From a virus, in the IMG/VR virus record IMGVR_UViG_3300022074_000215, positions 1 through 31,897 of that record: DNA of 31,897 bases; one strand, written 5' to 3'. The notes under the pieces are model-generated. The model did no database searches. It saw only the letters and a program-made list of their open reading frames with translations, and was not told where the DNA came from. The translations under genes were made by a program, and so were the position numbers. This document shows, piece by piece, positions 14,266-30,887 of the stretch. How positions within the stretch are numbered: position 1 is the stretch's first letter; each line of letters opens with the position of its first letter.

Positions 14266-17200
14266 ATGCCACTTAATAAGTTAGAGAATTTTATAAAGAA
14301 CACTGAGGGTAGGATTCTCTATGTAAATCCAAATGACTTGGATGCAACAGACAGTATATCAAATCAAGGAAACTCTTTAGCACAACCGTTCAAGACGATC
14401 CAAAGGGCTTTATTAGAGTCTGCTAGATTTTCATATGTAGAAGGGAATAACAACGATTTAATCGAGAAGACAACTATATTACTATTTCCCGGAGATCATG
14501 TAATTGATAACAGACCCGGATTTGGTATTAAAAATGTGGGTGGTGTCGCAAAGGCAGTCGCCCCAGATGGATCAGGATCAAATGGTGCACAGACAGATGC
14601 AATCGAAACTTTATCGTTAAACTTAACCTCTAACTTTGATTTAACACAAGAAGATAATATTCTCTACAAATTTAATAGTATTAATGGTGGTGTTGTTGTT
14701 CCTCGTGGTACATCAATAGTCGGTCTTGATTTAAGAAAGACAAAAATAAAACCAAAATATGTTCCAAATCCATTTGATAATTCAGTTGCTGCAAGTGCAC
14801 TTTTTAGAATCACTGGTACTTGTTACTTCTGGCAGTTCTCTATCTTTGATGGAGATGAGTCGGGTTTAGTATTTACTGATAGTTCAGATTTTAGTGTAAC
14901 TAATCGTTCTAAACCTACATTTTCACACCATAAACTTACATGTTTTGAATATGCTGACGGTGTAAACATAGATGATCGATTTAATTTAACTGATTTAGGA
15001 ATATATTATAGTAAATTATCAAACGCATTTAATAAAGTTGCAAGATTTATTGATACTCAAGATAGATTTCCCGCAAGCACCACAGGTTTCTCTCCACAAA
15101 GACCTGAATTTGAGATTGTTGGTGCATTTGGATCAGATCCAATTAATATTGCAGCGATTAAATCTGGTGATGGAACAACTCCAACATCAATTATTACAGT
15201 TACTACTGCAGCAGATCATACACTAACAACTGGTACACCAATTAAAGTTAAAGGTGTTGATGATTTAAGATATAATTTATCTACAAAAGTTCAGAGTGTA
15301 ACGGGATTAAGAACATTTACATATTTACTACCATTTGTACCTGACGATTTAGCAGCATCACCAAGCACATCAGCAGGAACAATAACAATTGAAACTGATA
15401 CAGTCTCTGGTGCATCACCTTATATCTTCAATATATCTCTTCGTTCTGTGTACGGAATGAATGGTATGCATGCTGACGGTGATAAGGCAACTGGTTTCAA
15501 ATCAATGGTTGTTGCTCAGTTCACTGCGATATCACTTCAGAAAGATGATCGTTGTTTTGTGAAGTATGATCAAGAATCTAGAACATATAAAGGAATTAAT
15601 TTACCAACAACACCCTCTACAGGTAGTGAATTAGCAACTTTATCTTCATCTCAAGACCCAACAAAGGTTTATCACTTAGATTCTGATGCAGTTTATCGAA
15701 AAGGAGACGAAACATTCCATATCAAACTATCAAATGATGCGATTATGCAAATCGTATCTGTATTTGCGATTGGTTTTAATAAGCATTTTACAGCAGAGAC
15801 TGGTGCTGACGCATCAATTACAAACTCTAACTCTAACTTTGGTCAGTTTGCGATTGCTTGTGATGGATTTAAAAAGGATGCATTTGGAAAAGATGACGCA
15901 GCATATATCACTCAAATCATAACACCAAGAGAAATTACATCTACTCAAACAAACGTAGACTGGCAGAGAATTGACGTTGCTAAAACCAAGACTGTTGGAA
16001 TTTCAAGTCACTTATATCTCTTTGGATTTGATACTCTAGATAACGTTCCACCAACTGTAATTCAAGGTTATCGTGTTGGTGCTGCATCAAGTGATCGATT
16101 ATTTGTTGACTTTACAAACGCAAACGTAGGAACTGGTGTAAGAGAAGCAACCATCCGCATGATGGATGTTGCAGTTGGATCAGGAACTACGGGTAATGAT
16201 TCAAGTACAAAACTATACAAAGTAACATCTGGCCCAACTGATAATACATTTACAATTGGTGAACATAAGTTAATTACAGGTGAAAAAGTCAGAATAATTA
16301 GTGATTCTGGTGATTTACCAGAGAATTTAGTAGAAAATACTGTATATTTTGCGATTGTTGTTGCTGGATCACCAAGTAATCAGATAAAATTAGCATCATC
16401 AAAAACAAATGCTGATAATAATGTTCCATTAATTGTATATAAAGGAACAAAATTAAAGATTGAAAGTCGTGTGTCAGATAAAGCTGCTGGTGATGTAGGA
16501 TCACCATTACAGTTTGACGCAACTAATGCTAATTGGTTCCTTAAAACAAATATTAACAGTGAGATATTCCAAACTGTTAATGCACAGGGAACATCAGGAT
16601 TAGGAGCAAATACACCTGTATCATTCATACAGAGAACTCCTGACGAAAGATCACTTGATGAGAAAATTTATAAGATTCGAGTTGTTGTACCAAAAGAAAG
16701 TGATAATGCAAAGAACCCAGAAGAAGGATTCATTGTACAGGAATCAAGTACAACTGGTATTCGATCTGATTTATCTGTAACTCTACAAAATATTGATGGT
16801 AATGACTATAATTATAAGAGAAATTACAGATTCATAAGTACATGTTCAGAGTTATCTGATGTTGTAACTATGGTATCAGTTGCACCTCATGATTTAAAAG
16901 TTGGTGAAAGAATATTTGTTAGAAACTGTACTGATGACGATGCAAACGGAACATCAACTGGAACGTTTGACAAGGGTTATAATGGATCATTTACTGTTGC
17001 ATCAGTTGTAGACGATAAAACATTTACATATAATGCTCAAGATACGAGTGGAGTTGTACATTCCATTGGTAACTTTACAAGTGTTGTTACAACAGACGCA
17101 TCAAGAACAACTACTCTTCCAAGATTTGAAAGAAATGATATCAAGAGTAACTTCTACATCTATCGAAATGAAACAATTAGTCCGTACATAAAAGACACTC

Positions 17201-20200
17201 AAGATGGTATCTACCATTTATTCATACTTCATGCTGATAATCCTATCACTGAAGAATTTACTGATCTTAAATATGGACAAAATGTTGTTGATTTATATCC
17301 ACAATTAGATCGAGATAATAATCATTCAAATCCACCAGCATCCGTATCATTTGCGAAGAGAGCACCGATTGGTGATGTTGCAACAGATGATTTAAGAAAG
17401 AGTATTACTAGAGAAACAACTGATAAGATAATTAAAGATTTTGCATATGGTAAGCGAGTTACAGGTGTAACAACTTACTTCTCATCTGGAAATGTAGGTC
17501 TTGCTACGATTACATTTGATCGACCTCATGGATTTGGTGCTGTTAAATATAGAAACTCAATTAGTGTCGCTGGTGCAAACCTTACAAACGGAACATTTCA
17601 TGGTATTAAATTATTCAACTCTGATGGATCAACATGGGATGGTGCGAGAGCATCTGTTGTAATTGCTGGTGGACAAGTTGGTGTCGTTACAATCACTGAA
17701 GGTGGATCTGGATATACTGCTGAAACTCTTGTGGTTGATAGACAATTTATTGGTGGTGGTTCAGCAACTGCTGCACAAATAACAGTCACAAACGTACATG
17801 GATCATCTGGTATTTCAACAAATATTGGAGATTCAGTTCAATTAACAGGTATTGGTACTGCAACTGACGGATTATATCGAATCGCAACTATACCATCTAC
17901 GACACAAATATCAGTTGCATTGACTGCAACATCACCAAGACCACAACTCGATCAGTACGCTATCAACTTAGGGCCATCTGCTGAAGTAGCAAGTGAATCA
18001 TTCTCTGTTGATACAACCACGTTTACAACTACACTTGGTCATGGATTAGTAAGTGGTCAAAAATTCAAAGTACTAGATGCTAATAATCAGAATTTAGGAT
18101 CATTCCATGTCAAAACTAAAGTATCTGCAACATCATTTACTGCTGTTACAACAATTGATCTTGGTACTCCAAAATTCATTCTTCCAGACGGAGTTGCATC
18201 TGCAACACCACTTTCTGATAAAGAGAATGAGAATGTTGGTTCAAGAGGATTAAGTTTCTATGCTGGAGATTATTTCTTCTTAGGAGCAAATGCAACTAAC
18301 TCTACAACAATTACCGTTTCATTACCAAATAGTGGTAACAACGATGCTGCTGCGATCAGATCAAGATTCCCAATTGGATCTTATCTACAGGCTGGCGATG
18401 AGGTTATGAGAGTCAAGAGTACTTCTGTATCTGGTTCAAGTCAAATACAAGTTATTAGATCAGCACTTGGAACTCCACAACAAAACCATTTAGCAAATGA
18501 TATTGTAAGAAAAATTACTCCAAGAGCAATTGAATTTAGAAGACCATCTATTATTCGTGCTTCTGGTCACACATTTGAATATCTTGGATTCGGGCCCGGT
18601 AACTACTCAACTGCATTGCCACAGGTTCAGGTCAGAACATTATCAGAACGTGAAGAGTTCTTAGTACAGTCACAAGAAAGATCATGTGGTACTGTTGTTT
18701 ATACAGGTATGAACAATAGAGGTGACTTCTTTATTGGTAATAAGAGAGTTAGTTCTGCAACAGGTCAGGAGAGAACATTTGATGCACCGATTGCAACTGT
18801 AACGGGTGAAGATCCATCAAGACTATCAGTCATATTTGATGAAGTAATTATTAAAGAAAGATTAGTTGTTGAGGGTGGTAAATCAAATACAATTCTTACA
18901 CAGTTCGATGGCCCTGTTACATTTAACAAGTTAGTTAAGGTTAACGAGGATCTAACTGTTAACGGTATTATGAAGTTGAATAATACCTTTGAGATTACAA
19001 ATACAACTCAATCAAATAATAAAGATACAGGTGCTTTAGTTATTGAGGGTGGACTTGGTGTAGAGAAGAATCTTAATGTCGGTGAGATGTTTAAGGTATC
19101 TGGTGTATCTACAGTCGGAAGTCTTGGTGTCACAACTAACTTTACTGTCGGTGGTATATCAACATTCACAGGAGAGGTTAACTTTAGTGGTGGACTTGAT
19201 GTTCGTAACATTGATATTGGTATCGCAGACGCACAAACAATCAACACTGATAGTGGAGACTTAGTTCTTGATGCTCAGTCAAATACAGTTCAAGTTAATG
19301 CAAACTTATCTGTCGGTGGAAACATTGCTGGTAACTTCTTAGATATTGATAATGTAAACATTGATAGTAATACAATTACCACACAGTCAGGTAATTTAAT
19401 TCTTGATGCGAATGGATCTAGTATAGTTGATGTTCAGGCAACTGCTGAACTTGATGGACTTAAATTCAATGGTGTTGCAGAGGTTTATACAAGTGTTGAT
19501 ACAGATCTTGCATCAGTATCTTCAAGTCATGATACTCTTGCATCTGCAAAATCGATTGCTGCTAAGATCGCTGCGATTGATACAACACTTACAGTCGGTG
19601 CTGATTCTGGGTCAAATGATAATGTCACAGTTGGAACTGACACACTTAACTTCGCTGGAACAACAAATGAGATCGAGACAACTGTATCAAATAATCAAAT
19701 TCAAATTGGATTACCAAATAATGTAACCATATCAGGAACTTTGACTGCAAATGGAAACGTTGATCTTGGTAATGCAACAAGTGATACTATCACATTTACA
19801 GGTAGAGTTGATTCTGATCTTGCACCATCTGGAACAACCAGAGATTTAGGAACTTCATCAAACAAATGGAGAGATTTATACATTGATGGTGTTGCATATG
19901 TTGATGATATTCATGCTGCTGATTGTGACATAAACGGTGGATCAATTGATGGTGTAACTATCGGTACAAACAGTGCGGTAACTGATCTACGAGTTGATAA
20001 TGTTCAGGTTAATGGTAATACAGTCACAACAACATCTGGCAACTTAGTGCTTGACTCTCAAAATGGAAGAGTTCAAATAAATGACGTTTTAGATGTTACT
20101 GGTAGAGCAGAAATTGATAGTGTAAGGATAGATGGTAACACCGTTGATACCATGTCAGGTAATTTAATACTTGACTCTAATGGTGGTGTAGTTGATATAA

Positions 20201-20586
20201 ATGATAATGTTGATATTTCTGGAACATTAACTCTAGGTAACACACTATCTGGTACGACTGCGACATTTACTGGCGATGTGACCGCACTTACATCTGACAT
20301 AAGATTAAAGACCAACATTGAACCAATTGAAAATGCACTTGACAAGGTTCTAGGTATAAATGGATTTACCTATAATCATAATGAAATTGCAGGTGAACTA
20401 GGTCTTGATACTGAAATAAGATATGCTGGTGTGTCTGCACAAGATCTTCAGGAAGTTTTACCTGAAGCAGTTAAACCGTGTCCAGCCAGTGATGAATATC
20501 TAACAGTTCAATATGAAAAGGTTGTACCTCTTCTTATTGAAGCAATTAAAGAACTCAAATCAGAAATCGAAGAACTTAAAAAATGA
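14266..20586 (+). CDS. Giant virion structural/fibre protein with C-terminal S74 intramolecular chaperone
   Basis: The 2106-residue protein starts MPLNKLENFIKNTEGRILYV and has a pectate-lyase-like beginning (NSLAQPFKTIQRALLESARF; TTILLFPGDHVI), typical of large structural proteins of marine T4-like phages. The middle has many beta repeats, including a GGSGYT motif at about 1146-1151. From about 1560 it becomes a fibre shaft with repeats such as TTSGNLVLDSQNGRVQIND and NLSVGGNI. The last 97 residues are a Peptidase S74 chaperone: TSDIRLKTNIEPIENALDKV, YAGVSAQDLQEVLPEAV, and a coiled-coil end. Ser2010 and Lys2015 form the expected dyad, so cleavage between 2009 and 2010 after trimer folding is likely. 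Likely a baseplate-attached tail fibre. Confidence 0.8.
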   Translation: MPLNKLENFIKNTEGRILYVNPNDLDATDSISNQGNSLAQPFKTIQRALLESARFSYVEGNNNDLIEKTTILLFPGDHVIDNRPGFGIKNVGGVAKAVAPDGSGSNGAQTDAIETLSLNLTSNFDLTQEDNILYKFNSINGGVVVPRGTSIVGLDLRKTKIKPKYVPNPFDNSVAASALFRITGTCYFWQFSIFDGDESGLVFTDSSDFSVTNRSKPTFSHHKLTCFEYADGVNIDDRFNLTDLGIYYSKLSNAFNKVARFIDTQDRFPASTTGFSPQRPEFEIVGAFGSDPINIAAIKSGDGTTPTSIITVTTAADHTLTTGTPIKVKGVDDLRYNLSTKVQSVTGLRTFTYLLPFVPDDLAASPSTSAGTITIETDTVSGASPYIFNISLRSVYGMNGMHADGDKATGFKSMVVAQFTAISLQKDDRCFVKYDQESRTYKGINLPTTPSTGSELATLSSSQDPTKVYHLDSDAVYRKGDETFHIKLSNDAIMQIVSVFAIGFNKHFTAETGADASITNSNSNFGQFAIACDGFKKDAFGKDDAAYITQIITPREITSTQTNVDWQRIDVAKTKTVGISSHLYLFGFDTLDNVPPTVIQGYRVGAASSDRLFVDFTNANVGTGVREATIRMMDVAVGSGTTGNDSSTKLYKVTSGPTDNTFTIGEHKLITGEKVRIISDSGDLPENLVENTVYFAIVVAGSPSNQIKLASSKTNADNNVPLIVYKGTKLKIESRVSDKAAGDVGSPLQFDATNANWFLKTNINSEIFQTVNAQGTSGLGANTPVSFIQRTPDERSLDEKIYKIRVVVPKESDNAKNPEEGFIVQESSTTGIRSDLSVTLQNIDGNDYNYKRNYRFISTCSELSDVVTMVSVAPHDLKVGERIFVRNCTDDDANGTSTGTFDKGYNGSFTVASVVDDKTFTYNAQDTSGVVHSIGNFTSVVTTDASRTTTLPRFERNDIKSNFYIYRNETISPYIKDTQDGIYHLFILHADNPITEEFTDLKYGQNVVDLYPQLDRDNNHSNPPASVSFAKRAPIGDVATDDLRKSITRETTDKIIKDFAYGKRVTGVTTYFSSGNVGLATITFDRPHGFGAVKYRNSISVAGANLTNGTFHGIKLFNSDGSTWDGARASVVIAGGQVGVVTITEGGSGYTAETLVVDRQFIGGGSATAAQITVTNVHGSSGISTNIGDSVQLTGIGTATDGLYRIATIPSTTQISVALTATSPRPQLDQYAINLGPSAEVASESFSVDTTTFTTTLGHGLVSGQKFKVLDANNQNLGSFHVKTKVSATSFTAVTTIDLGTPKFILPDGVASATPLSDKENENVGSRGLSFYAGDYFFLGANATNSTTITVSLPNSGNNDAAAIRSRFPIGSYLQAGDEVMRVKSTSVSGSSQIQVIRSALGTPQQNHLANDIVRKITPRAIEFRRPSIIRASGHTFEYLGFGPGNYSTALPQVQVRTLSEREEFLVQSQERSCGTVVYTGMNNRGDFFIGNKRVSSATGQERTFDAPIATVTGEDPSRLSVIFDEVIIKERLVVEGGKSNTILTQFDGPVTFNKLVKVNEDLTVNGIMKLNNTFEITNTTQSNNKDTGALVIEGGLGVEKNLNVGEMFKVSGVSTVGSLGVTTNFTVGGISTFTGEVNFSGGLDVRNIDIGIADAQTINTDSGDLVLDAQSNTVQVNANLSVGGNIAGNFLDIDNVNIDSNTITTQSGNLILDANGSSIVDVQATAELDGLKFNGVAEVYTSVDTDLASVSSSHDTLASAKSIAAKIAAIDTTLTVGADSGSNDNVTVGTDTLNFAGTTNEIETTVSNNQIQIGLPNNVTISGTLTANGNVDLGNATSDTITFTGRVDSDLAPSGTTRDLGTSSNKWRDLYIDGVAYVDDIHAADCDINGGSIDGVTIGTNSAVTDLRVDNVQVNGNTVTTTSGNLVLDSQNGRVQINDVLDVTGRAEIDSVRIDGNTVDTMSGNLILDSNGGVVDINDNVDISGTLTLGNTLSGTTATFTGDVTALTSDIRLKTNIEPIENALDKVLGINGFTYNHNEIAGELGLDTEIRYAGVSAQDLQEVLPEAVKPCPASDEYLTVQYEKVVPLLIEAIKELKSEIEELKK

Positions 20587-21659
20587 CACTCCCATCATCT
20601 CCGAACTCAATAAGTATGAGTCAGATAGCCAATGAGTTTGGTTACACTCAAGGAAGTGCAACTAAATTAGGAGATTATCGTACACTAGCAAATGGATCAA
20701 ATTATCCTCAGTCAATCGGTGCATTATCCTTTAGTTCAATTGATGGTGGTGGATCTGTTGCAACAGGTTCAAATCCAATAAACATGGGATCTTTTAGAGG
20801 TACACAACTTCAACAGGTTGTGAATTTCTGGTCATCAGGTGCTGGTGGTTTTAGATTAAATGCGAAGTCTAGATATAATAATAATGGAATGATTGGTAGT
20901 AATAATCAAGTTGCAGTTGTCGGTGGTTATCGAACAAGACCATCTAATTCAAGTGGAACAAAAGTTCATATTCATGTAAATCAGGCGATTGGATCTGAAA
21001 GATTTGACCCAGACCATTGTGCATTGAGAACTGGATCATGGGATGGTAGTACAACATTACAAGTTGATGTTGGTGGTTCAGGAAGAATACAAGGTGCTGG
21101 TGGATTTGGTGGTAATGGAGCAAATGGAGCAACTGGTGGTAGTCAAGGTGGTGCAGGTACAAGTGGATTAGGTGTTGAATATTCTCCTACTCAAGTAAAC
21201 ATCACATCAGGTGGAATTATATCTGGTGGATTTGGTGGAGGAGGAGGTGGCGGTGGTGCGCATGACCACGACCACAAATCTGAAAGAACTGCTTCTGGAA
21301 GTGGAGGTGGTGGAGGTGCAGGACTACCAGTAGGTCAAGGTGGAACTGGGCCAAATAATGGAACAAATGCTAATAATGGTTCTGCTGCTACAAATGGAGA
21401 ACTAGCGGGAGAAGGTGGAGGTGGAACAAATAATGACGGGGAAGCATATGGTGGAACTGGTGGTGATGGAGGATCACCGAATGAAGCAGCAGATAATGGT
21501 GCTAATGGATCAGGTGGAGAAGGATCAGGCGGTGGAGGTGGAGCCGGTGGTGCAGAAGGTGCTGCAATAAGAAGAACAAATGGATCAATAACGGTCAATA
21601 TAAATCCAGTAAGTGCATTAAATGGTAGAGGATCAACGACAGCAACGACTGTGCAATAA
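20583..21659 (+). CDS. Glycine-rich tail-tip adhesin-like protein (gp38-type)
   Basis: The 358-residue protein starts with TLPSSPNSISMSQIANEFGY, a motif found at the start of many virion proteins of marine phages. From about residue 160 it is dominated by Gly-rich blocks (GAGGFGGNGANGATGGSQGG; runs of six or more Gly near 215-225, 245-250 and 315-320) separated by variable, polar segments. This resembles T-even type gp38 adhesins, in which polyglycine helices hold receptor-binding loops. A His/Asp loop HDHDHK (about 227-232) sits between Gly-runs. It overlaps the fibre gene by ATGA, matching the 37-38 gene order of T2-like phages. The family name is inferred from composition and context. Confidence 0.6.
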   Translation: MTLPSSPNSISMSQIANEFGYTQGSATKLGDYRTLANGSNYPQSIGALSFSSIDGGGSVATGSNPINMGSFRGTQLQQVVNFWSSGAGGFRLNAKSRYNNNGMIGSNNQVAVVGGYRTRPSNSSGTKVHIHVNQAIGSERFDPDHCALRTGSWDGSTTLQVDVGGSGRIQGAGGFGGNGANGATGGSQGGAGTSGLGVEYSPTQVNITSGGIISGGFGGGGGGGGAHDHDHKSERTASGSGGGGGAGLPVGQGGTGPNNGTNANNGSAATNGELAGEGGGGTNNDGEAYGGTGGDGGSPNEAADNGANGSGGEGSGGGGGAGGAEGAAIRRTNGSITVNINPVSALNGRGSTTATTVQ

Positions 21660-21698: not shown

Positions 21699-22277
21699 AT
21701 GGCATTTGAGACTGATTTAATTAGAAGATATACTGGTGCTTTCACAAAAAACGATTGTGAAAAGATCATTCATGGTATCAAATTTTTTGAAGATAATAAC
21801 TTATTATTTTACGATAGAGAGATATTAGACAGACAAGATCATAAAGTGATAAACGTCACTCATGAATATGACTTTTCGATGTCGAGTCGAATATGTGAAG
21901 AGATGTTTCCAAAATTAAAACCTTGTGTCGATGAATATCTAAAAGCATTTAGTATTTTAGGACAGAGAAAATTTTTAATACATGATTTAAAATTGAAAGA
22001 GATACCAGCTGGTGGTGGTTTTCATGCGTGGCATTATGAGACTGGTGCATTATCAGTTGCAGCAAGACAATTTGTGATTCAAGTATATTTAAATGATGAT
22101 TTTGATGGAGGAGAAACAGAATTTTTATATCAACAAAGAAGAGAACAGGCAGTCGAAGGGGATGTTCTTATATTTCCCGCATCATATACTCATACTCATC
22201 GAGGAAATCCACCATTAGGTGGCACTAAATATCTTGCAACATCATGGGGTATCATTCAAAATGATAATAATATATAA
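21699..22277 (+). CDS. 2OG-Fe(II) oxygenase, HxE variant
   Basis: The 192-residue protein has the double-stranded beta-helix pattern of 2-oxoglutarate/Fe(II) oxygenases: GGGFHAWHYETG (106-116), FVIQVYLNDDFDGGETEF, VEGDVLIFPASYTHTHRG and GTKYLATSW. Predicted iron ligands are His112, Glu114 (instead of the usual Asp) and His167; Lys177 would bind the oxoglutarate carboxylate. Such enzymes hydroxylate protein, nucleic acid or small substrates using O2 and 2OG; the substrate is not visible here. It is the first gene of the oxygenase operon behind an extended -10 promoter, and the next gene overlaps it by 17 bases. Confidence 0.82.
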   Translation: MAFETDLIRRYTGAFTKNDCEKIIHGIKFFEDNNLLFYDREILDRQDHKVINVTHEYDFSMSSRICEEMFPKLKPCVDEYLKAFSILGQRKFLIHDLKLKEIPAGGGFHAWHYETGALSVAARQFVIQVYLNDDFDGGETEFLYQQRREQAVEGDVLIFPASYTHTHRGNPPLGGTKYLATSWGIIQNDNNI

Positions 22278-22608
22278 AGTTACGGATTACTTTCCAGAAA
22301 CTGACCAGATCGCTGTCAAGTTCTGTCATGAAAAATCATCTAAACCAATAGATGATTATAATGCTATTTCAATAGATTGTAAAAATATAGAAACATATGA
22401 TATTGAAAGTTTTTCAGAGGATTTAGTTAGTAAAAGTGGATTAAGAAAATTAGAAAAACAAGATAGAAAATTAACTACATTAGAGGAAAATCAGTCAGAA
22501 AAATTAGATGGAGAATTAAACATACGAGATTTGATTGGTAAAGTAATCGGGGTTGATTATCCAACAAAAATTTATAGTAAAATTAAGATGAGAAGGGTGG
22601 AATTATGA
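22261..22608 (+). CDS. Unknown small protein in oxygenase operon (115 aa)
   Basis: The protein (MIIIYKVTDYFPETDQIAVK, then FCHEKSSKPIDDYNAISIDC, a helical acidic middle and YSKIKMRRVEL) resembles small conserved unknown proteins near fibre genes of cyanophages. It looks like an alpha/beta fold of a 40-residue strand-rich head, then a helical middle with LRKLEKQDRKLTTLEENQ, then a strand-rich end. I chose ATG 22261 rather than an upstream in-frame ATG (22219), which would bury 59 bases in the oxygenase gene. Overlap with the next gene is ATGA. The gene may act with the oxygenases, but nothing in it shows how. Confidence 0.65.
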   Translation: MIIIYKVTDYFPETDQIAVKFCHEKSSKPIDDYNAISIDCKNIETYDIESFSEDLVSKSGLRKLEKQDRKLTTLEENQSEKLDGELNIRDLIGKVIGVDYPTKIYSKIKMRRVEL

Positions 22609-23078
22609 ATTTTAAAAGATCATTTAAAAAGTGTGAAGAATTTAGAATATGTTGTGCCTATGGAGATAAAGGAGTTGTTTATGTTGAAGAGCATGAAAAG
22701 AATAAAACATTATATTCAATACAAGTAAAAGGTTCTGGTAGATGTGCTACTGTCTTTAGTTCTGATTATATTGAGGGAAATGAAAATGATGCTAACTTTG
22801 GATGTATGAAACCATATATCGGTAAACATCTTATCTTTGAATCCTATGAACCTTTTATCCAGTATGGATTTAGCACTTTAAGTTACGATCAAGATTGGGA
22901 TGGTGAACTTGTAAAGGGATCATTTCAAGGTAACGAGAATAGTTGGTTAGTATGTTTCAAAGGTAATCCGATAATAAATGGTATCGAACTTAAAGTTATG
23001 GATTATGCAAAACTAGATAATAAACATTATGATGTACAATTAAATGATTCCTTAGTTGGTGTATTCACAAAATTATGA
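22605..23078 (+). CDS. Unknown protein in oxygenase operon (157 aa)
   Basis: I do not recognise a family. The protein looks beta-rich with a compact fold: FRICCAYGDKGVVYVEEHEK, LYSIQVKGSGRCATVFSSDY, HLIFESYEPFIQYGFSTLSY, WLVCFKGNPIINGIELKVMD. There are five Cys residues (CCAY, RCAT, GCMK and one late Cys), unusual for this phage, but no known metal motif. No HxD iron-binding motif is present, so it is not another 2OG enzyme. ATGA overlaps on both sides keep it in strict co-translation with the oxygenases. Confidence 0.65.
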   Translation: MNFKRSFKKCEEFRICCAYGDKGVVYVEEHEKNKTLYSIQVKGSGRCATVFSSDYIEGNENDANFGCMKPYIGKHLIFESYEPFIQYGFSTLSYDQDWDGELVKGSFQGNENSWLVCFKGNPIINGIELKVMDYAKLDNKHYDVQLNDSLVGVFTKL

Positions 23079-23770
23079 CCCTTAAGATAACAGATAATGT
23101 AACTAGAATTGAAAAAGAGGTTCAAGATGGTGATTTTAATTTAAATTTAAAAGATCACATATTATATCTACCATCTTTTATCAATTCTGATGTATGTAAA
23201 GATATAGTGAATAATTTAAAAAATGTCGGACTTGATAAATCCACACCATATACTGATGGGTTATTAAATGATTATACAGATTCTTATTTTGATCCTGACA
23301 TTTCTACAATTACAGATATAAAAAATAAAGTAAGTCAAGATGCTTTAAAATTATATGCAGAAAAAGTTAGAGCATATGATTGGTCATATCATAACTCAGA
23401 TAAATTTTTCCCATCAGAAATGATTGTAAGAAGATATAATAATAAATCTGAATTTAGTTATCATTATGATGATATTGTTGAGGAAATATTCCCACATTGG
23501 TTTGTTAGAAGAAAGAATATATTAACTTGTAATGTCTATTTAAATGATAATAATGAATATGATGGTGGTGATTTACATTTTGCATCCTGTAATCTTACAT
23601 TCAAACCAAAGATAGGTGATGTTATACTTTCACCATCAAACTGGATGTTCTTTCATAAAGTAAATGAGATTACATCTGGAGTGAGATACTCTGGTACATA
23701 CTGGTATTATTATGGTTCAGATAAAAAAGTTGGAAAAGGTATTAGTCATAGTAAAAACTTTTTAAAATGA
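23075..23770 (+). CDS. 2OG-Fe(II) oxygenase, prolyl-4-hydroxylase type
   Basis: The 231-residue protein has YLPSFINSDVCKDIVNNLKN near the N-terminus, then the catalytic beta-helix: EFSYHYDDIVEEIFPHW (His130-x-Asp132), NVYLNDNNEYDGGDLHFAS, KPKIGDVILSPSNWMFFHKV (His194) and SGVRYSGTYWYY (Arg204 for the oxoglutarate carboxylate). All four expected ligands are in place and correctly spaced, so it is probably active. The DGGDL motif and order match the P4H/PKHD group. The substrate is unknown; the operon context next to fibre genes suggests a phage structural protein or host target. Confidence 0.86.
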   Translation: MTLKITDNVTRIEKEVQDGDFNLNLKDHILYLPSFINSDVCKDIVNNLKNVGLDKSTPYTDGLLNDYTDSYFDPDISTITDIKNKVSQDALKLYAEKVRAYDWSYHNSDKFFPSEMIVRRYNNKSEFSYHYDDIVEEIFPHWFVRRKNILTCNVYLNDNNEYDGGDLHFASCNLTFKPKIGDVILSPSNWMFFHKVNEITSGVRYSGTYWYYYGSDKKVGKGISHSKNFLK

Positions 23771-24429
23771 TTAGATATACAATGTTAGAGACACAAATTT
23801 CTGAAGGAGAACATACTTCTTGTCATTTTTGTGTAGATAAATTTGAAGGATTACTTGATAAAGGACTAGACTTATCAAAGTATGAATTATCAATTACAGA
23901 TCCTAAAACACATTTTCACGTTCACTATTTAAATCGTGATGGCGATTATATTGAAAAAGAAGTTCTAGATGCCTATGATATAAATGTTGACTTTCCTGTC
24001 ATATTTTTTGGTAGAGAGTTACCTTATCGAGATGGATTTAGATGTGCATATCATTTAAGCACTTTGAAAAAATTAAAGTCACCATTTATAAAAGATGTTA
24101 TAAAAATAATAAAATTATTTAAGGGAAACTATATTGATATAATACTTGCGAGTGATTTTACACAAGATGGTGAGATAAGAAATAAAGATGTTAACATTGA
24201 AATCATACCACATATCAATAATCATAAGGAGATAGGTGAAATATTAGAAAATAATTTTGAGTTACCTAAACTAGATTATTACAAGGAGAGTTTTAATGAT
24301 TATAATGAAAAAGATTTTGCGTGGCATATTAAGATTAAATTATTTCGATATATAAAAATACCGATAGTAAAATTTTATAGAACATATCCTAACAATCCAT
24401 ATCTACATTTTAAATATTATGATAAGTAA
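23767..24429 (+). CDS. Unknown protein in oxygenase operon (220 aa)
   Basis: I recognise no family. The N-terminal half has a His-rich stretch THFHVHYLNRDGDYIEKEVL (about residues 48-67) and two Cys in HTSCHFCVDKFEG, a CxxC metal-like pair. The middle has a hydrophobic helix pair (VIKIIKLFKGNYIDIILASD) and the C-terminus is basic and aromatic (KIKLFRYIKIPIVKFYRTYP). It is not a 2OG enzyme by motif. The upstream overlap is ATGA and the downstream overlap is 11 bases. The C-x-x-C/H-rich N-terminus could bind a metal; this is speculative. Confidence 0.6.
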   Translation: MIRYTMLETQISEGEHTSCHFCVDKFEGLLDKGLDLSKYELSITDPKTHFHVHYLNRDGDYIEKEVLDAYDINVDFPVIFFGRELPYRDGFRCAYHLSTLKKLKSPFIKDVIKIIKLFKGNYIDIILASDFTQDGEIRNKDVNIEIIPHINNHKEIGEILENNFELPKLDYYKESFNDYNEKDFAWHIKIKLFRYIKIPIVKFYRTYPNNPYLHFKYYDK

Positions 24430-24949
24430 AACTGATTTGAAAAATTTATACGAGTGGGCAAAGCATAAAGATTTTCCTGTTAGAAAAACTCCTACGACAA
24501 GTGGACTTTATAAAAAACCTTATGGAACTAATAAAATTCATTCATATTGTAATAAAGATATTTTTAGTTTTCCTCTGAAGTTTGGTCGTAGAAAAGTAAC
24601 CATCCGTGAAAGTTTAATGCCAACAAATATTGCAAATATATTTAAGAATGAGGATATATTATATACCGTAGTTTCAATATTTCAAAGTGGAACTTTCTTA
24701 AAACCACATCGTGACCCACACATATATCAATTTCCATATAAAAGAATACAAATACCACTAGAGATACCAGATAAAAATAAATGTTACATGGAGTGGACTG
24801 ATATAAAAGGTGGAAGAGTAGATTGGGATGAAGGTGTGCCACAAGTTTGTGATGTTATGCATCATACTCATCAGGCATTTAATAAGTCAGATAAGGATAT
24901 GGTTATGATGTTTATAGATGTGAAAATGGATACTGAGGTAGAGTTATGA
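24419..24949 (+). CDS. 2OG-Fe(II) oxygenase, aspartyl/asparaginyl beta-hydroxylase type
   Basis: The 176-residue protein has SIFQSGTFLKPHRDPHIYQF (His97-x-Asp99), then RIQIPLEIPDKNKCYMEWTD and VCDVMHHTHQAFNKSDKDMV with His151 and Asn155, and a final MMFIDV strand. The PHxDP, R-x-x-x-P-L and H-x-x-x-N order is that of the aspartyl/asparaginyl beta-hydroxylase group, which hydroxylates Asp/Asn side chains in proteins. The usual C-terminal Arg before the last strand is replaced by Lys/Asp (KSDKD), so oxoglutarate binding may differ. ATG 24419 overlaps the previous gene by 11 bases and its stop forms ATGA with the next gene. Confidence 0.75.
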   Translation: MISKTDLKNLYEWAKHKDFPVRKTPTTSGLYKKPYGTNKIHSYCNKDIFSFPLKFGRRKVTIRESLMPTNIANIFKNEDILYTVVSIFQSGTFLKPHRDPHIYQFPYKRIQIPLEIPDKNKCYMEWTDIKGGRVDWDEGVPQVCDVMHHTHQAFNKSDKDMVMMFIDVKMDTEVEL

Positions 24950-25521
24950 ATGATATACAAATAGATGTCATAGATAATTTCTTTGATGAGGAATTACAAG
25001 ACGAAATTTTTAAAAAAATAAAGTCTTCTAAGTGGTCTTTCAATGGGGGTAGTTTGAGGAATCCTATCTGGCATGTTGACAATTTAGAACAGGATAAATT
25101 CTTTAGTCATTATGTTCAAGATTTGATTCTGAACAAATTTAATTTAATCAATTCAAAATGTATAAGGATATATGCGAATGGTCAAACAGGTGGTATGAAT
25201 GGAGATCCACATATAGATGATGGACATTTAACTTTCTTATATTTTGCAAATCCAACTTGGAATGTTGATTGGGGTGGTCATCTTGCATTTTTAAATATTT
25301 TAGGTAAAATGTATGATGGTGATGAATATGGAAATGTAGGTCAATCTTGGTATGATTGGGATTATGCACCAAGCATTGAAGATGAAATTGAAAAGGTAAT
25401 AACCTATAAACCAAATAGAGGAGTTCTCTTTCCCTCTAATCTTGTTCATTATGCGATGGCTCCCCATACATTTTTTAAAGGCATGAGAATCTCACTCGCA
25501 TACAAATTCTTTTTATATTGA
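24946..25521 (+). CDS. 2OG-Fe(II) oxygenase, P4H-like
   Basis: The 191-residue protein starts with IDVIDNFFDEELQDEIFKKI, a classic entry helix of this group, then shows GDPHIDDGHLTFLYFANPTW (His89-x-Asp91), WGGHLAFLN, ITYKPNRGVLFPSNLVHYAM (His168) and GMRISLAYKF (Arg181). All catalytic ligands are present, and GGHL replaces the usual GGEL/GGDL. The layout resembles bacterial P4H-type hydroxylases with small-molecule or protein substrates. A 30-residue acidic loop (DGDEYGNVGQSWYDWDYAPS) lies between the strands and may line the substrate site. Overlaps are ATGA upstream and TGATG downstream. Confidence 0.85.
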   Translation: MNDIQIDVIDNFFDEELQDEIFKKIKSSKWSFNGGSLRNPIWHVDNLEQDKFFSHYVQDLILNKFNLINSKCIRIYANGQTGGMNGDPHIDDGHLTFLYFANPTWNVDWGGHLAFLNILGKMYDGDEYGNVGQSWYDWDYAPSIEDEIEKVITYKPNRGVLFPSNLVHYAMAPHTFFKGMRISLAYKFFLY

Positions 25522-26150
25522 TGGAAACACTAGATACAGATTTATATAGAGATCCATTTCCCCATATGATTGTAAAAAACTTTTATAATGATAGTGAGTT
25601 GAAGTTGATATGGGAGGAACTAGATTTTTATACCAAACCTGATAAGTTATTAGATGCGAAATATTATGGTGGGGTAGTGACTCATACTAATTCAAAAGCA
25701 TTATGGTTAGATAAAATATATAAGGATAAATATCGAAGTCTATCTAACATATTAACTGTCAATCGAAAAGTATTTGATTCAGCAATTCTTGACGCATTTT
25801 CATCTGTTCATGATTGTTGTTCAATCGCTAGACATTCAAATAATGATCAAACAAAGATAAGATATTATCATGACGGTGATTATTATGAACCACATACAGA
25901 TAAAACTGTTCAATTTTTAGGTTTTTCATATTTCTATCGTGAACCAAAAAGATTTCAAGGGGGTGAGTTAATCTTTCCTAAGTATGATTATACTTTTGAT
26001 TGCCCTAATAATTCATTGATTATGATGCCCGGCTGGGTAGAACATGGTGTGTCTAAAATTTCAATCAAAAATTCAGATTACTTTGATGGATATGGAAGAT
26101 ATGCTGTTACGAGTTTCTTTAGTAATAAAGATAAGAAAGAAACTGAATAA
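25521..26150 (+). CDS. 2OG-Fe(II) oxygenase, P4H-like
   Basis: The 209-residue protein has DPFPHMIVKNFYNDSELKLI at the N-terminus, IRYYHDGDYYEPHTDKTVQF with His125-x-Asp127, GFSYFYREPKRFQGGELIFP, SLIMMPGWVEHGV (His175) and GRYAVTSFF (Arg193). The full iron and oxoglutarate set is present. ATG 25521 forms TGATG with the upstream stop; an in-frame TTG at 25518 is less likely. It is the last gene of the operon. Its final codons and stop overlap the 17-base repeat that carries a late promoter for the next fibre gene. Confidence 0.85.
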   Translation: METLDTDLYRDPFPHMIVKNFYNDSELKLIWEELDFYTKPDKLLDAKYYGGVVTHTNSKALWLDKIYKDKYRSLSNILTVNRKVFDSAILDAFSSVHDCCSIARHSNNDQTKIRYYHDGDYYEPHTDKTVQFLGFSYFYREPKRFQGGELIFPKYDYTFDCPNNSLIMMPGWVEHGVSKISIKNSDYFDGYGRYAVTSFFSNKDKKETE

Positions 26151-26172: not shown

Positions 26173-28893
26173 ATGGCTGATATAAGAAAGACCTTTAATT
26201 TCAGAGATGGGGTACAAGTAGACGATGAAGTTCTAGTTGTTAGAGGCAATCGTGTGGGTTTGGGTACTACGAGTCCAGATCAATTATTAGACGTAAGAGG
26301 AAATGCAAATATAACAGGAGTTACATCTACAGTAAACTTTAATGTAACTGGTGTTGGTACATTTAATCAGATTAAACTCGGAAGCGGAATTATATTAGGA
26401 AATGCGGGTGTCATCACAGCAACCACATTCTCTGGGGATGGTGCATCACTTACAAATATACCAACTTCACAATGGACAGATGTAGGAGCAGCATCAATAT
26501 ACAATGACGGTAGCGTGGGAGTGGGGACTACCAACCCAGCCAACCCTTTCCAAGTGGGTGGAGATCCTAATAATGGTATAGGAGTTGGATTTAGTACATC
26601 AGGCAATATAAAGGCATCTGGTATCATTACAGCGACCACGTTTTCAGGAGCATTAAATGGTAGTGTCACAGGTAATGTAACTGGAAATCTTACAGGTAAT
26701 GCAGATACAGCGACTTATGCAGGGGTAGCAGGGGTAGCGACTGTTGCACAAAACTTGACAGGAAATCCAAGTATAAGTGTAACTAACGTCAATGCTTCAG
26801 GTGTTGGAACATTCCCAAATCTGGTGACAACTGATTTAAGCACAGTCACCTTGAAGGGTTACAACTCACTCAGAGCCCCACATGGTACAACAGTTACGAT
26901 TGTTGTTACAGTTGCAGCAAAGACAGCAGCACACAGATATAACGGTTCAGGTAGTAGTAATGGATTTAAACTTGATGGTGTCGAAGCACCTTACTTAACT
27001 CTCACACCCGGCCGTACTTACCGTTTTGATGTTTCAGATGGTACAAACGCAGGTCATCCATTAAGATTTTATTATGATGTAGATAAGACAACACCATATA
27101 CTACAGGTGTCACAGCATCAGGTAATGCAGGTGTATCAGGAAGTTATGTTGATTTAGTTATCTCAGATACTACACCAAGTGTCTTACATTATCAATGTTC
27201 ATCTCATTCTAAGATGGGTAACTCAGTTCAAACTGGGTCAAATATTTTAGATACAGAGCATAACTCACAGGTACGAGGTACGTTAACTGCAACTTCATTG
27301 GTTGGAGCATTAACTGGTAATGTCGCAGGTAATGTTACAGGTAATTTAACTGGAACTGCTGTTACTTCAACTACATTCTTTGGAAACGTAACTGGTACAG
27401 GAATAACTGCTACAACATTTACAGGGTCATTAGTCGGTGGTGTAACTGGAAACGTCACAGGACTGATAAATTCAGTCGGTGTATCTACGATTACTAGATT
27501 ATCTACAACAAATATAACTGCTACTGGTGTCTCTACATTTACTGATATTGATATAAGTGGAACAGCAGACTTACCAAATGTTTATACATCAGGTATTGGT
27601 ACATTTACGAGATCATTTGCGACTAATTTAAATGTCTCAGGTGTCTCTACATTTGGAAATAATATTGTTGCACAGGGTAATCTAGATGTAGATGGACTGA
27701 CAACTTTAGATGATGTTAATGTATCAGCAGCTGCTACGATTGCAAAGGCAGTTATCTCTGCACTTAATGTCTCAGGTGTCACAACATCCACAGGTGGATT
27801 TGTAGGTGCATTGACAGGAAATGCAACTGGATTATCAGGTACACCAACTGTAGTTGTTAATGGATTAACAGCAACCACATCAAAGTTAGGTGTGTCAACA
27901 GCTACGAGTATTGGTATAGGTACTGACACAGCAAATGCAAATTTACAAATTCATAATGCTTCAGGTGCATCATCTATTGTAGTTGGTCAAAACTCAGCAG
28001 TTGCAGATAATAATTTACAATTAAGATATGGTGGTGGAGCATCAGCATATAGTACTTCTGACTCTGTTGACTTAATTAACTATGGAGATGGAAACCTTAA
28101 CTCATTTATAACTGGAACAAGTAATTTCAATTGGTTGAAAGGAAATTCAAATATCTTGATGTCTCTTACAGATTCAGGTAATTTAGGTATTGGTAAGACA
28201 GACCCTACTGATAGATTACATGTTCAAGGTAATGCCAGAATTACAGGTGTGACTACATTTACTGGAAATGTCACGATGAGTAACTTGACAGTTCCAATAC
28301 TGAATATCGCTGACGTATCTGCAAACCTAATTGGTAATGTTAACTCTGCGGGTATATCAACATTCAGACTTATGCACATAGATGGTGTAGGAGAGGGTAT
28401 TGGTGTTGGTGGAACTGCAAGTGGAAACTTTATTAACGCTGGTAATACACCATTGAACACAACATTTGTTGGTTCTGCAACTACTAACACCAGTAGAATT
28501 TTCTCTAGAGAAGGTGCTGTAGGAGTTGGAACTGATAGATTTACACATTTAGGAGGAGGTTCCGTTCCATCATTGGAAGTGAGAGGTGCGACTATGGTTC
28601 ATGGTGGTTTCTTTAAAGTTGGTGGAAAATCATCCCCTGTAACAGACCAAAATGCAAGATCACTGATCGACTTTAGTGAGGCCACTTCTGCTCATGACGC
28701 AGGTAATCCACTTGCACCAGTAGCATACATGATTGTACCAAGAGGTACAACAGCACAGAGAAACGCTCTAAGAGATGGTATTTCAGGTTCGACAACTCTG
28801 ATGACAGGTTCGATGTTCTATGATACTGATTTAAATAAATTATGTGTATATGACAATGGTGGTTGGAAAGGAGTTACACTCGGAGCATTGTAA
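26173..28893 (+). CDS. Tail fibre protein with embedded cupredoxin-like domain
   Basis: The 906-residue protein has an N-terminal ADIRKTFNFRDGVQVDDEVL motif shared by fibres of marine T4-like phages and a repetitive shaft: VGLGTTSPDQLLDVRGNA, ITATTFSGDGASLTNIP, GNVTGNLTGNADTA and many copies of SGVSTF/TGVSTF. At about 232-355 a non-repeat domain is inserted with LTPGRTYRFDVSDGTNAGHP and SVLHYQCSSHSKMGNSV. His295, Cys342, His345 and Met348 have type-1 copper-site order. The C-terminus (about 815-906) ends SMFYDTDLNKLCVYDNGGWK and GVTLGAL, a common fibre end domain. It probably forms a trimeric tail fibre. It is behind the AATAAATA late box. Confidence 0.8.
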   Translation: MADIRKTFNFRDGVQVDDEVLVVRGNRVGLGTTSPDQLLDVRGNANITGVTSTVNFNVTGVGTFNQIKLGSGIILGNAGVITATTFSGDGASLTNIPTSQWTDVGAASIYNDGSVGVGTTNPANPFQVGGDPNNGIGVGFSTSGNIKASGIITATTFSGALNGSVTGNVTGNLTGNADTATYAGVAGVATVAQNLTGNPSISVTNVNASGVGTFPNLVTTDLSTVTLKGYNSLRAPHGTTVTIVVTVAAKTAAHRYNGSGSSNGFKLDGVEAPYLTLTPGRTYRFDVSDGTNAGHPLRFYYDVDKTTPYTTGVTASGNAGVSGSYVDLVISDTTPSVLHYQCSSHSKMGNSVQTGSNILDTEHNSQVRGTLTATSLVGALTGNVAGNVTGNLTGTAVTSTTFFGNVTGTGITATTFTGSLVGGVTGNVTGLINSVGVSTITRLSTTNITATGVSTFTDIDISGTADLPNVYTSGIGTFTRSFATNLNVSGVSTFGNNIVAQGNLDVDGLTTLDDVNVSAAATIAKAVISALNVSGVTTSTGGFVGALTGNATGLSGTPTVVVNGLTATTSKLGVSTATSIGIGTDTANANLQIHNASGASSIVVGQNSAVADNNLQLRYGGGASAYSTSDSVDLINYGDGNLNSFITGTSNFNWLKGNSNILMSLTDSGNLGIGKTDPTDRLHVQGNARITGVTTFTGNVTMSNLTVPILNIADVSANLIGNVNSAGISTFRLMHIDGVGEGIGVGGTASGNFINAGNTPLNTTFVGSATTNTSRIFSREGAVGVGTDRFTHLGGGSVPSLEVRGATMVHGGFFKVGGKSSPVTDQNARSLIDFSEATSAHDAGNPLAPVAYMIVPRGTTAQRNALRDGISGSTTLMTGSMFYDTDLNKLCVYDNGGWKGVTLGAL

Positions 28894-28962: not shown

Positions 28963-29649
28963 ATGCCAGACATTTTTAATGTTTTCCCATTGACGATATA
29001 TGTTGATAAGGTAAGCAAGCACGAGATTTATAAAGAGGATTTTTACAAGTTATATCCGAAGTATGATTATGTCGAGAATGAGAGATCGAATACTGTAAGT
29101 GAAGGACAGGTTGACCCACTCATACATCTCGAACCATCTTTAAATCCATTATTCACAGAGATCGCAGGTCATGTGAGAAGGTATATACATGATACTTTGA
29201 AGTTTCGAGATATATTCAACATCACATTCACAAAGACATGGTTGTCTCGTATGAGAGATTGTAGTGAGATACCTTTACATATACATTCGACAAGTCATAT
29301 TTCATTTGTATATTATTTAAATACCCCACCAAATTCACATAAACTTACATTTCATAATCCACATTGCTCAAATAGTTTATTCAAGACATCAACTTCTGAT
29401 AAGGGCATTGCTGATATGAATATGGTAGAGGAATATAATTTACTGAACTCAAATACATTCTATCTGAATCCACAGGAGGGATGTGTGATTTTATTTCCAA
29501 GTAGTGTGTTGCATGGAACTGAATCGGTGGTGTCAGATTTCAAAGGTGAGAGGTTGGCGATAGTCGGTGACATCACATTAATATTAAAAGAAGAACATCT
29601 ACAATTTACAAATGGATATGTCGATCAAAAGTATTGGAGACAGTTCTAA
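28963..29649 (+). CDS. 2OG-Fe(II) oxygenase, Oxy_5 type
   Basis: The 228-residue protein starts PDIFNVFPLTIYVDKVSKHE and has TKTWLSRMRDCSEIPLHIHS, TSHISFVYYLNTPPNSHKLT, a variable loop, and EGCVILFPSSVLHGTESV followed by GERLAIVGDITLIL. This is the pattern of the putative 2OG-Fe(II) oxygenase group with H-x-H-P-x-S-type first motif (His106, His108), distal His184 and Arg197. The family is common in marine T4-like phages. It stands alone behind its own extended -10 promoter, away from the operon, and immediately upstream of uvsW. Confidence 0.78.
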   Translation: MPDIFNVFPLTIYVDKVSKHEIYKEDFYKLYPKYDYVENERSNTVSEGQVDPLIHLEPSLNPLFTEIAGHVRRYIHDTLKFRDIFNITFTKTWLSRMRDCSEIPLHIHSTSHISFVYYLNTPPNSHKLTFHNPHCSNSLFKTSTSDKGIADMNMVEEYNLLNSNTFYLNPQEGCVILFPSSVLHGTESVVSDFKGERLAIVGDITLILKEEHLQFTNGYVDQKYWRQF

Positions 29650-29693: not shown

Positions 29694-29714
29694 GAATATA
29701 TCTAAAGGATTTTG

Positions 29715-30887
29715 ATGCAACTAAGACCCCACCAAGAGAAAGCAATTAAGGCAATGTTAAAGCACGACAAGGGACAAGTGATTGTTCCTACTGGTGGTGG
29801 CAAGACTATCTGTATGATACAGGATGCCATTGAGCAATTCAAGAGTGATACACTCAAAACTATTGTGGTAGTTGCACCTCGTATTCTATTGGCAAATCAG
29901 TTGAGTGAAGAGTTCCTTGAGTTTATTGATGACGTTGATGTACTTCATGTTCATAGTGGAGAGACACATCATGAAAGTACAACTAAGTCTAAAGTAATTG
30001 AGGAGTGGTGTTGGGCAAGTAAAAGACATCAACTCATATTCACTACATATCATTCTTTACATAAGATACAAGATGCTACAGCTGCATTAGTAGATACTGT
30101 TTATTTTGATGAAGCACATAACGCTACTCAGAGAAACTTTATTGAAGCAGTAGAGCATCATTCAATGTATGCACCTCGCAACTATTTCTTTACAGCGACA
30201 CCGAAGCACTCATATACACCTTTCAAGGTTGGTATGAATGACACAGATATATTTGGTGGTGTCATTTGTAATGTTGGAGCCCCTAAGTTAGTCAAGCAGG
30301 GATATATTTTACCACCTAAAGTCAAGATCAAGAAGTTCAATATCCTTGAAGATAAGCAAGAAGTTGCTGAGAGAGACTCAAAGCATTTAATTGAGACACT
30401 TGATGAGAATGGCATCAATAAGAGTTTAATTTGTGCAAGATCAACAAAGCAGATTGTCAGACTATTTACTGACTCAGATTTTGCTCTTGATCTTGAGAAT
30501 CGTGGATACTCATGGATGTTTATTACAGCAAAGACAGGTGGTGTTATCAATGGTAAGAAAGTTGATAGAGAAACATTTTTCAATACTCTCAACAGTTGGG
30601 GTCAAGATCCAAACCACAAATTTGTAGTTGCACATCATAGCATACTTTCCGAAGGTATCAATGTCAAGGGTCTTGAAGCGGTATTGTTCATGAGAAAGAT
30701 GGACTTCATAGGTATCAGTCAGTCTATTGGTCGTGTAATCAGGAAGGGCGATGCTTCAAAGACATTCGGATTGATTTGTGTACCAGTTTATGATAAGGTT
30801 GGTCTAAGCACTTCTAGGAGTGTTGAGGCAGTAGTTGATACTGTATTCAATCAAGGTAAACCAGCCATCTCAGTAGTCAGATCATGA
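29715..30887 (+). CDS. uvsW: UvsW-like DNA/RNA-DNA helicase (DEAH, SF2)
   Basis: The 390-residue protein has SF2 helicase motifs in order: Q-like LRPHQEKAI (3-11), Walker A PTGGGKT (25-31), Ia VVAPRILLANQL, motif II DEAH (132-135), motif III FFTATP (158-163), and motif VI QSIGRVIRKG (336-345). In T4 UvsW unwinds branched DNA and R-loops and shifts replication to the recombination-dependent mode. T4 UvsW is about 500 residues; this copy starts at the helicase core and lacks the N-terminal DNA-binding domain, as marine relatives may. I chose ATG 29715 because AAAGGA lies 5 bases upstream; an in-frame TTG (29712) precedes it. The end overlaps the next gene by ATGA. Confidence 0.82.
   Translation: MQLRPHQEKAIKAMLKHDKGQVIVPTGGGKTICMIQDAIEQFKSDTLKTIVVVAPRILLANQLSEEFLEFIDDVDVLHVHSGETHHESTTKSKVIEEWCWASKRHQLIFTTYHSLHKIQDATAALVDTVYFDEAHNATQRNFIEAVEHHSMYAPRNYFFTATPKHSYTPFKVGMNDTDIFGGVICNVGAPKLVKQGYILPPKVKIKKFNILEDKQEVAERDSKHLIETLDENGINKSLICARSTKQIVRLFTDSDFALDLENRGYSWMFITAKTGGVINGKKVDRETFFNTLNSWGQDPNHKFVVAHHSILSEGINVKGLEAVLFMRKMDFIGISQSIGRVIRKGDASKTFGLICVPVYDKVGLSTSRSVEAVVDTVFNQGKPAISVVRS

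Follow-up and report, generated by a model that had tools for sequence, protein, structure and literature searches.

Genomic evidence for a candidate adhesin-tailoring island of 2-oxoglutarate oxygenases or halogenases beside the gp38-type tip of marine T4-like phages

Introduction

Genes for 2-oxoglutarate (2OG)-Fe(II) oxygenases belong to the commonest unexplained families of marine T4-like phages, where they are usually assigned to nitrogen metabolism or DNA repair. The cyanophage S-SCSM1 has 24 of them (PMC9602691), and part of these stand beside fibre genes. A metabolic role for the cyanophage enzymes was proposed by Sullivan et al. 2010 (PMC3037559); a proposal of repair by earlier authors, as relayed in a passage of PMC9146016, builds on the position of 2OG genes next to uvsX, uvsY and uvsW. 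Isolated phages hold further arrangements of this kind: in Syn9 and Syn10 a single block combines fibre genes, genes for Gly-rich proteins, two halogenase genes and a series of 2OG genes, and in HTVC008M a five-gene run on the reverse strand, four genes of which are annotated as 2OG oxygenases, adjoins fibre and baseplate genes. For VirX1, the halogenase of Syn10, a review lists unnatural substrates only (PMC8407142).

Here we analyse an IMG/VR virus record of 31.9 kb (IMGVR_UViG_3300022074_000215, positions 1 to 31,897; hereafter ‘the window’), which carries T4-like genes for the tail tube, baseplate hub and lysozyme, fibres and a helicase. Between an adhesin gene (ADH) and a second fibre gene (FIB2) lie eight overlapping genes, G1 to G8 (21,699–26,150), five of which encode 2OG-Fe(II) oxygenases. 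The established features of this cassette and its relatives are gene order, a modelled adhesin fold, conserved catalytic residues, purifying selection, co-occurrence, covariation, and a Trp/Cys contrast between two adhesin classes. Tailoring of the adhesin by the enzymes encoded beside it is, on this genomic evidence, the explanation that we consider best, and we hold it with moderate confidence.

Results

The adhesin is a gp38-type tip accompanied by 2OG genes

ADH (20,583–21,659, + strand) is a Gly-rich protein encoded directly after the 2106-residue long tail fibre protein FIB (14,266–20,586, + strand; phrog_529, E=0), which anchors the cassette. We built an AlphaFold2 (AF2) model of ADH with 67 homologues (predicted local distance difference test score, pLDDT, 93.6); its only clear PDB matches in Foldseek are the gp38 adhesin tips of phages PP01 (9v85) and S16 (6f45), and VIA-align returned Z 18.9 over 244 residues to S16 gp38 and Z 17.2 to PP01 gp38. 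The Pfam GP38 profile (PF05268) matches 8 of the 67 homologues and does not match the ADH of the window itself. Because of these fold matches and the GP38 hits among homologues, the protein that the original prediction called an adhesin is by fold a gp38-type tip, with receptor binding as its predicted role.

Relatives were collected by scans with G5, G1 and G6, and then with two neutral anchors, FIB and the UvsW-like helicase HEL at the right-hand end (29,712–30,887, + strand; PF04851 and PF00270); this yielded about 250 loci. Their maps share a common frame (FIB, optional FIB2, ADH, G1, a variable interval, G8, optional FIB2, HEL), with one to six oxygenases between the anchors in many combinations. 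Every complete FIB–HEL cassette with ADH carries at least one 2OG oxygenase (52/52, and 22/22 among loci that were not found via an oxygenase). Among loci found with FIB or HEL, a 2OG gene lies no more than three or four genes from each of the 41 ADH genes that are away from a contig edge, and in 31 of the 41 the adjoining neighbour is G1. The enzymes stay beside ADH when FIB2 changes place, and in five loci they adjoin it although the two are on opposite strands. The eight-gene arrangement is not a product of chance: it recurs in tens of contigs, and its oxygenases have low ratios of nonsynonymous to synonymous substitution (dN/dS).

The same counts bear on AlkB-like DNA repair, linked to the neighbouring uvsW gene. 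That proposal has been published, and the UvsW-like HEL is indeed the right-hand neighbour of the cassette. Yet HEL with ADH always has 2OG genes nearby (19/19), whereas HEL without ADH mostly lacks them (present in 2/16 with 2.5 kb or more visible); 21 of 24 halogenase-type cassettes (described below) that were not found via 2OG genes retain HEL and carry zero 2OG genes; and the best matches of the enzymes are to non-AlkB families. Neither does the enzyme repertoire track HEL (see below). Repair is very improbable as an explanation of the cassette, and for this locus a link to uvsW is rejected on the HEL–ADH counts, the halogenase cassettes and the Mantel result.

Isolated phages were examined by a rotation test of 2OG gene position relative to the long fibre, which was confined to complete isolates. 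In 13 such genomes, 29 of 116 2OG genes are found within 10 kb of the long fibre where 11.8 are expected (p 0.0008).

The enzyme repertoire covaries with the adhesin

We compared enzyme repertoires across 31 cassettes by a partial Mantel test with HEL, the FIB C-terminus and FIB2 as controls and 1000 permutations. With these controls applied, repertoire distance correlates with ADH distance (0.28; reached in 0/1000 permutations, p<0.001), and in these cassettes none of HEL, the FIB C-terminus or FIB2 correlates with the repertoire once ADH is included. Although its coding sequence runs into the beginning of ADH, the FIB C-terminus shows no repertoire signal. The original prediction had named fibre or adhesin proteins as the target, with linkage to fibre genes in relatives as its test. 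That linkage held, and it favours the adhesin over the fibres as the target, given a repertoire that follows ADH and ignores the FIB C-terminus and FIB2, and an adjacency that survives FIB2 moves and strand inversion. The prediction is supported in part. A second suggestion, that the enzymes form a single sequential pathway on one substrate, is not favoured, since their number and kinds vary freely between cassettes (1–6 per cassette). These enzyme counts are probably lower bounds, because further cassette proteins without a Pfam hit show His motifs by eye (L139:9216-9857 and L098:9411-10004; one is cupin-like, the other has HxD...H).

A metabolic role, in which consumption of 2OG would reprogramme host nitrogen or carbon metabolism, has the published proposal in its favour, together with the many copies elsewhere in cyanophage genomes, such as those of S-SCSM1. 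For these copies it may apply. It predicts neither the dependence on adhesin type, nor the tracking of adhesin over backbone, nor six divergent enzymes in a fibre operon, and as an account of the cassette we judge it improbable.

A sister cassette combines a Trp halogenase with a different adhesin

In phage S-SRM01 the corresponding slot is occupied by a flavin-dependent halogenase gene; the gene next to it is annotated ‘gp37-gp38 adhesin tip complex’, and a helicase gene comes after them. A halogenase profile search of IMG/VR gave 42 loci, in which the usual order is FIB, FIB2, halogenase, a Gly-rich adhesin (ADHH), a protein of about 110 residues, and HEL. The halogenase at L229:8794-10299 scores 294.7 bits against PF04820 (cut-off 21), and the residues W255, W257, I259 and P260 of the WxWxIP motif are invariant in six aligned cassette halogenases. 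These enzymes are a separate subgroup, which shares about 30% identity with other phage halogenases.

The Gly-rich half of ADHH holds a Cys-framed, Trp-containing insert, for example CNWWGNCWW in S-SRM01. ADHH proteins have 4–12 Trp and at least 10 Cys, versus 0–5 Trp and at most 7 Cys in ADH, a contrast that is kept at 50% identity clustering. Loci in which the halogenase gene stands directly before a gp38-like adhesin with such an insert include L229:8794-11481, L112:11681-14262 and L273-L311.

Complete ADHH cassettes carry a halogenase in 25/25 cases, a pairing that is partly due to selection, as most ADHH loci were found via the halogenase (for those that were not, the count is 4/4); 2OG genes occur in 3 of the 25. 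Conversely, a halogenase is present in 2 of 52 complete ADH cassettes. Mapped on the HEL tree, the three adhesin states require 8 or more changes; hence adhesin type and enzyme class have stayed paired although the locus switched repeatedly. The position of a Trp halogenase next to an adhesin with a Trp-containing loop suggests an enzyme–substrate pair, and by analogy this lends support to such a reading of the oxygenases.

Six divergent oxygenases with conserved catalytic residues

The original prediction of eight genes with overlaps of 1–17 bases was borne out: all are on the same (+) strand, and consecutive overlaps measure 17, 4, 4, 4, 11, 4 and 1 bases (G2 starts at ATG 22,261 and G8 at ATG 25,521). 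Its five 2OG-Fe(II) oxygenases are likewise upheld by Pfam and PHROG profile matches and by conserved triads; it overlooked a sixth, OX10 (28,963–29,649, + strand; PF13759, 5e-16), which lies behind FIB2, so that its count was slightly low. The five oxygenases of the run fall into two Pfam families. Four belong with PF13640: G1 (21,699–22,277) and G4 (23,075–23,770) are over the cut-off, and G7 (24,946–25,521) and G8 (25,521–26,150) are below it, both being strong in PHROG 2OG families (phrog_274 for G7; phrog_61, 6e-20, for G8). The fifth, G6 (24,419–24,949), is an Asp/Asn beta-hydroxylase type that matches PF05118 (Asp_Arg_Hydrox; 1.3e-9, 38.6 bits, cut-off 22.6) and is 41% identical to DiO of P-HM1. 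G4 is PKHD/PiuC-like (PiuC, 1.8e-7). G1 is the usual immediate downstream neighbour of ADH, and G8 is, together with G1, the most persistent enzyme of the cassette. No direct PDB homologue was found for G1 or G6.

The five triads named beforehand are all correct (H112/E114/H167, H130/D132/H194, H97/D99/H151, H89/D91/H168 and H125/D127/H175). Their histidines are 100% conserved among 17–118 homologues per enzyme, as are the acidic residues (E or D in G1), and a basic residue past the distal His, which would bind the 2OG carboxylate, is K or R in 98–100% of G1, G4, G7 and G8 homologues; in G6 and OX10 its assignment is ambiguous. In OX10 the iron set is of the HxH kind typical of PF13759 (H106, H108, H184), and is conserved in its homologues. 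To judge from these residues, the oxygenases should bind Fe(II) and 2OG. The five enzymes of the run are not close copies of each other, as the original prediction also held: identity to G1 is 15–22%. Against three close relatives dN/dS of the oxygenases is 0.03–0.21, low values which imply that the enzymes are maintained by purifying selection.

This strong purifying selection, and the persistence of G1 and G8, argue against an insertion hot spot, that is, a site near the adhesin that recombines often and where selfish or neutral morons, including 2OG genes, would accumulate. The mosaic make-up of the interval, in which methylase, nuclease and PurN-type genes occur too, speaks for a hot spot; however, most of its contents come from a single enzyme superfamily, or are a halogenase, in keeping with the adhesin type. 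We consider a hot spot unlikely.

A different alternative is that the enzymes act on the host surface during infection (lipid A, lipopolysaccharide or surface glycans), for instance as a block to superinfection, and that they travel with the adhesin via a common receptor. In this case covariation with the adhesin would be expected too, and G6 resembles the lipid A and ornithine-lipid hydroxylases LpxO and OlsC, and G7 resembles FlmC (an NCBIfam model), all of these matches being far below curated cut-offs. On the other hand, the relatives include PKHD-type and PF13640 enzymes and not lipid-type ones alone, the enzyme genes stand among structural genes, and host-surface modification leaves unexplained the Trp insert of the halogenase-linked adhesin, which a tryptophan halogenase would need. 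It is rather unlikely, in our view, and together with the moron hot spot it is the main rival to adhesin tailoring.

Several PHROG names in this superfamily mislead: families called ‘DNA endonuclease V’, ‘DNA endonuclease’, ‘ferrochelatase’ and ‘minor coat protein’ (phrog_274, phrog_2297, phrog_3531 and phrog_1644) match these oxygenases, and phage records such as those of Syn9 and HTVC008M carry the same labels. A role in anti-phage defence was also considered and rejected: PADLOC yields only a generic 2OG model labelled CRISPR-associated, and a defence context was not seen.

Companion genes and surroundings

Three genes of the run are not oxygenases. G3 (22,605–23,078, + strand), which the original prediction had passed over, is a confident cupin-fold prediction (AF2 pLDDT 96.2), with Foldseek matches to HutD (5e-5) and to other cupins including YhaK and BacB. 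The columns of its homologue alignment hold no invariant or nearly invariant His, and hence no metal-binding His set; as conserved His residues were not found, G3 is probably not a metal enzyme. G2 (22,261–22,608, + strand), a small protein without assigned function, has G3 as its partner in nearly every locus, and the two move together across the locus maps. Travelling with the adhesin and G2, G3 may serve in assembly, or as a partner that binds substrate. G5 (23,767–24,429, + strand), also without assigned function, is linked to G4 and G6 and is present in 9 viral contigs; it has no match in phage records. Profile searches gave no usable family match for G2 or G5.

FIB2 (26,173–28,893, + strand; phrog_30742, 2e-72) has a mobile position in relatives. 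A T4-type late promoter (TATAAATA) shows no excess in the window and does not occur before G1, and promoter-like sites in the window are near chance level. Further to the left, at 2417–2854 on the minus strand, a TnsA-like endonuclease N-terminal domain (PF08722, 1.7e-24) lies between gp53 and the tail tube gene. Other genes enter the cassette in relatives: a PurN-like formyltransferase (PF00551; L207:7801-8328) stands between adhesin and oxygenases in two cassettes, and in one phage an apparent DNA methylase and restriction endonuclease, identified by eye, replace part of the cassette (L134:5433-7170).

Discussion

The oxygenases share a run of structural genes with the long fibre and its gp38 adhesin, and we hypothesize that they hydroxylate side chains of ADH, most likely in the Gly-rich receptor-binding tip. 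The reaction would occur inside the infected cell, either ahead of fibre assembly or in the course of it, and several enzyme subtypes would add several marks. Swapping of enzyme sets between phages by recombination could then tune the chemistry of host contact along with the adhesin sequence. In the sister lineage, this slot is occupied by a tryptophan halogenase, and the predicted reaction is halogenation of Trp residues within the Cys-framed insert of ADHH, the other gp38-like adhesin. It is inferred from genomes that the adhesin is the substrate, which modification it receives, when this happens and how it affects binding. Still more tentative is the generalization that marine T4-like phages carry exchangeable islands that modify their own gp38 tips, 2OG sets hydroxylating one class and a Trp halogenase serving the other; we put this forward as a possibility rather than as our expectation.

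Several observations weigh against adhesin tailoring. The loci are related, hence the counts are not independent, and the Mantel test corrects only partly for the linkage of neighbouring genes, whose closeness can inflate a correlation. Three loci without HEL (L104, L250 and L070) have no 2OG gene immediately downstream of ADH, although two of them carry oxygenases close by. The G4–G5–G6 module, at 83–84% identity, occurs with an adhesin that is only 44% identical (L093), and the notion of enzyme sets bound to single adhesin alleles is thereby rejected. The content of D, N, P, K and H in ADH shows no signature in the expected direction when set against the presence of G6, OX10 and G7; ADH proteins from loci with the Asp/Asn-hydroxylase-like G6 contain less Asp rather than more. 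Many cyanophage 2OG genes are far from fibres, and not every one is tied to an adhesin. Finally, in the seven isolates that were not picked via 2OG genes, the excess near the long fibre is weaker: 7 genes versus 2.7 expected within 5 kb (p 0.058), 12/55 versus 5.5 within 10 kb (p 0.054) and 24/55 versus 10.8 within 20 kb (p 0.004).

Should the tip prove to be the substrate, some 2OG genes would shift from ‘auxiliary metabolism’ to host recognition, and host range would not be readable from the adhesin sequence alone, its chemistry being encoded by enzymes as well. A natural substrate would also be supplied for cyanophage halogenases such as VirX1. In the open-access literature that we searched, we found neither a modular gp38-linked island with hydroxylase and halogenase versions, nor an adhesin link of 2OG genes, nor such a candidate role for these halogenases.

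Cyanophage 2OG arrays and virus-encoded self-hydroxylation are themselves already known. With the gp38 adhesins of the T-even phages S16 and PP01, ADH shares its fold, its Gly-rich tip and its place after the long fibre gene; the coupling to oxygenase genes is a feature of the present cassette, and we know of no description of it for enterobacterial phages. Mimivirus encodes collagen hydroxylases that act on its own structural proteins, at Lys and Pro. The likeness is that of a virus hydroxylating its own proteins; the differences are a eukaryotic giant virus, a collagen target and other enzymes. VirX1 of Syn10 (PDB: 6QGM) belongs to the same flavin-dependent family as the cassette halogenases, which form a distinct subgroup of it. 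The closest relatives of the oxygenase run are the 2OG arrays of the T4-like cyanophages S-SCSM1, Syn9, S-SSM5 and S-SSM7, which are made up of divergent copies from the same superfamily and stand partly near fibres: the literature treats these as auxiliary metabolic or repair genes, whereas the cassette described here is tied to a gp38 adhesin.

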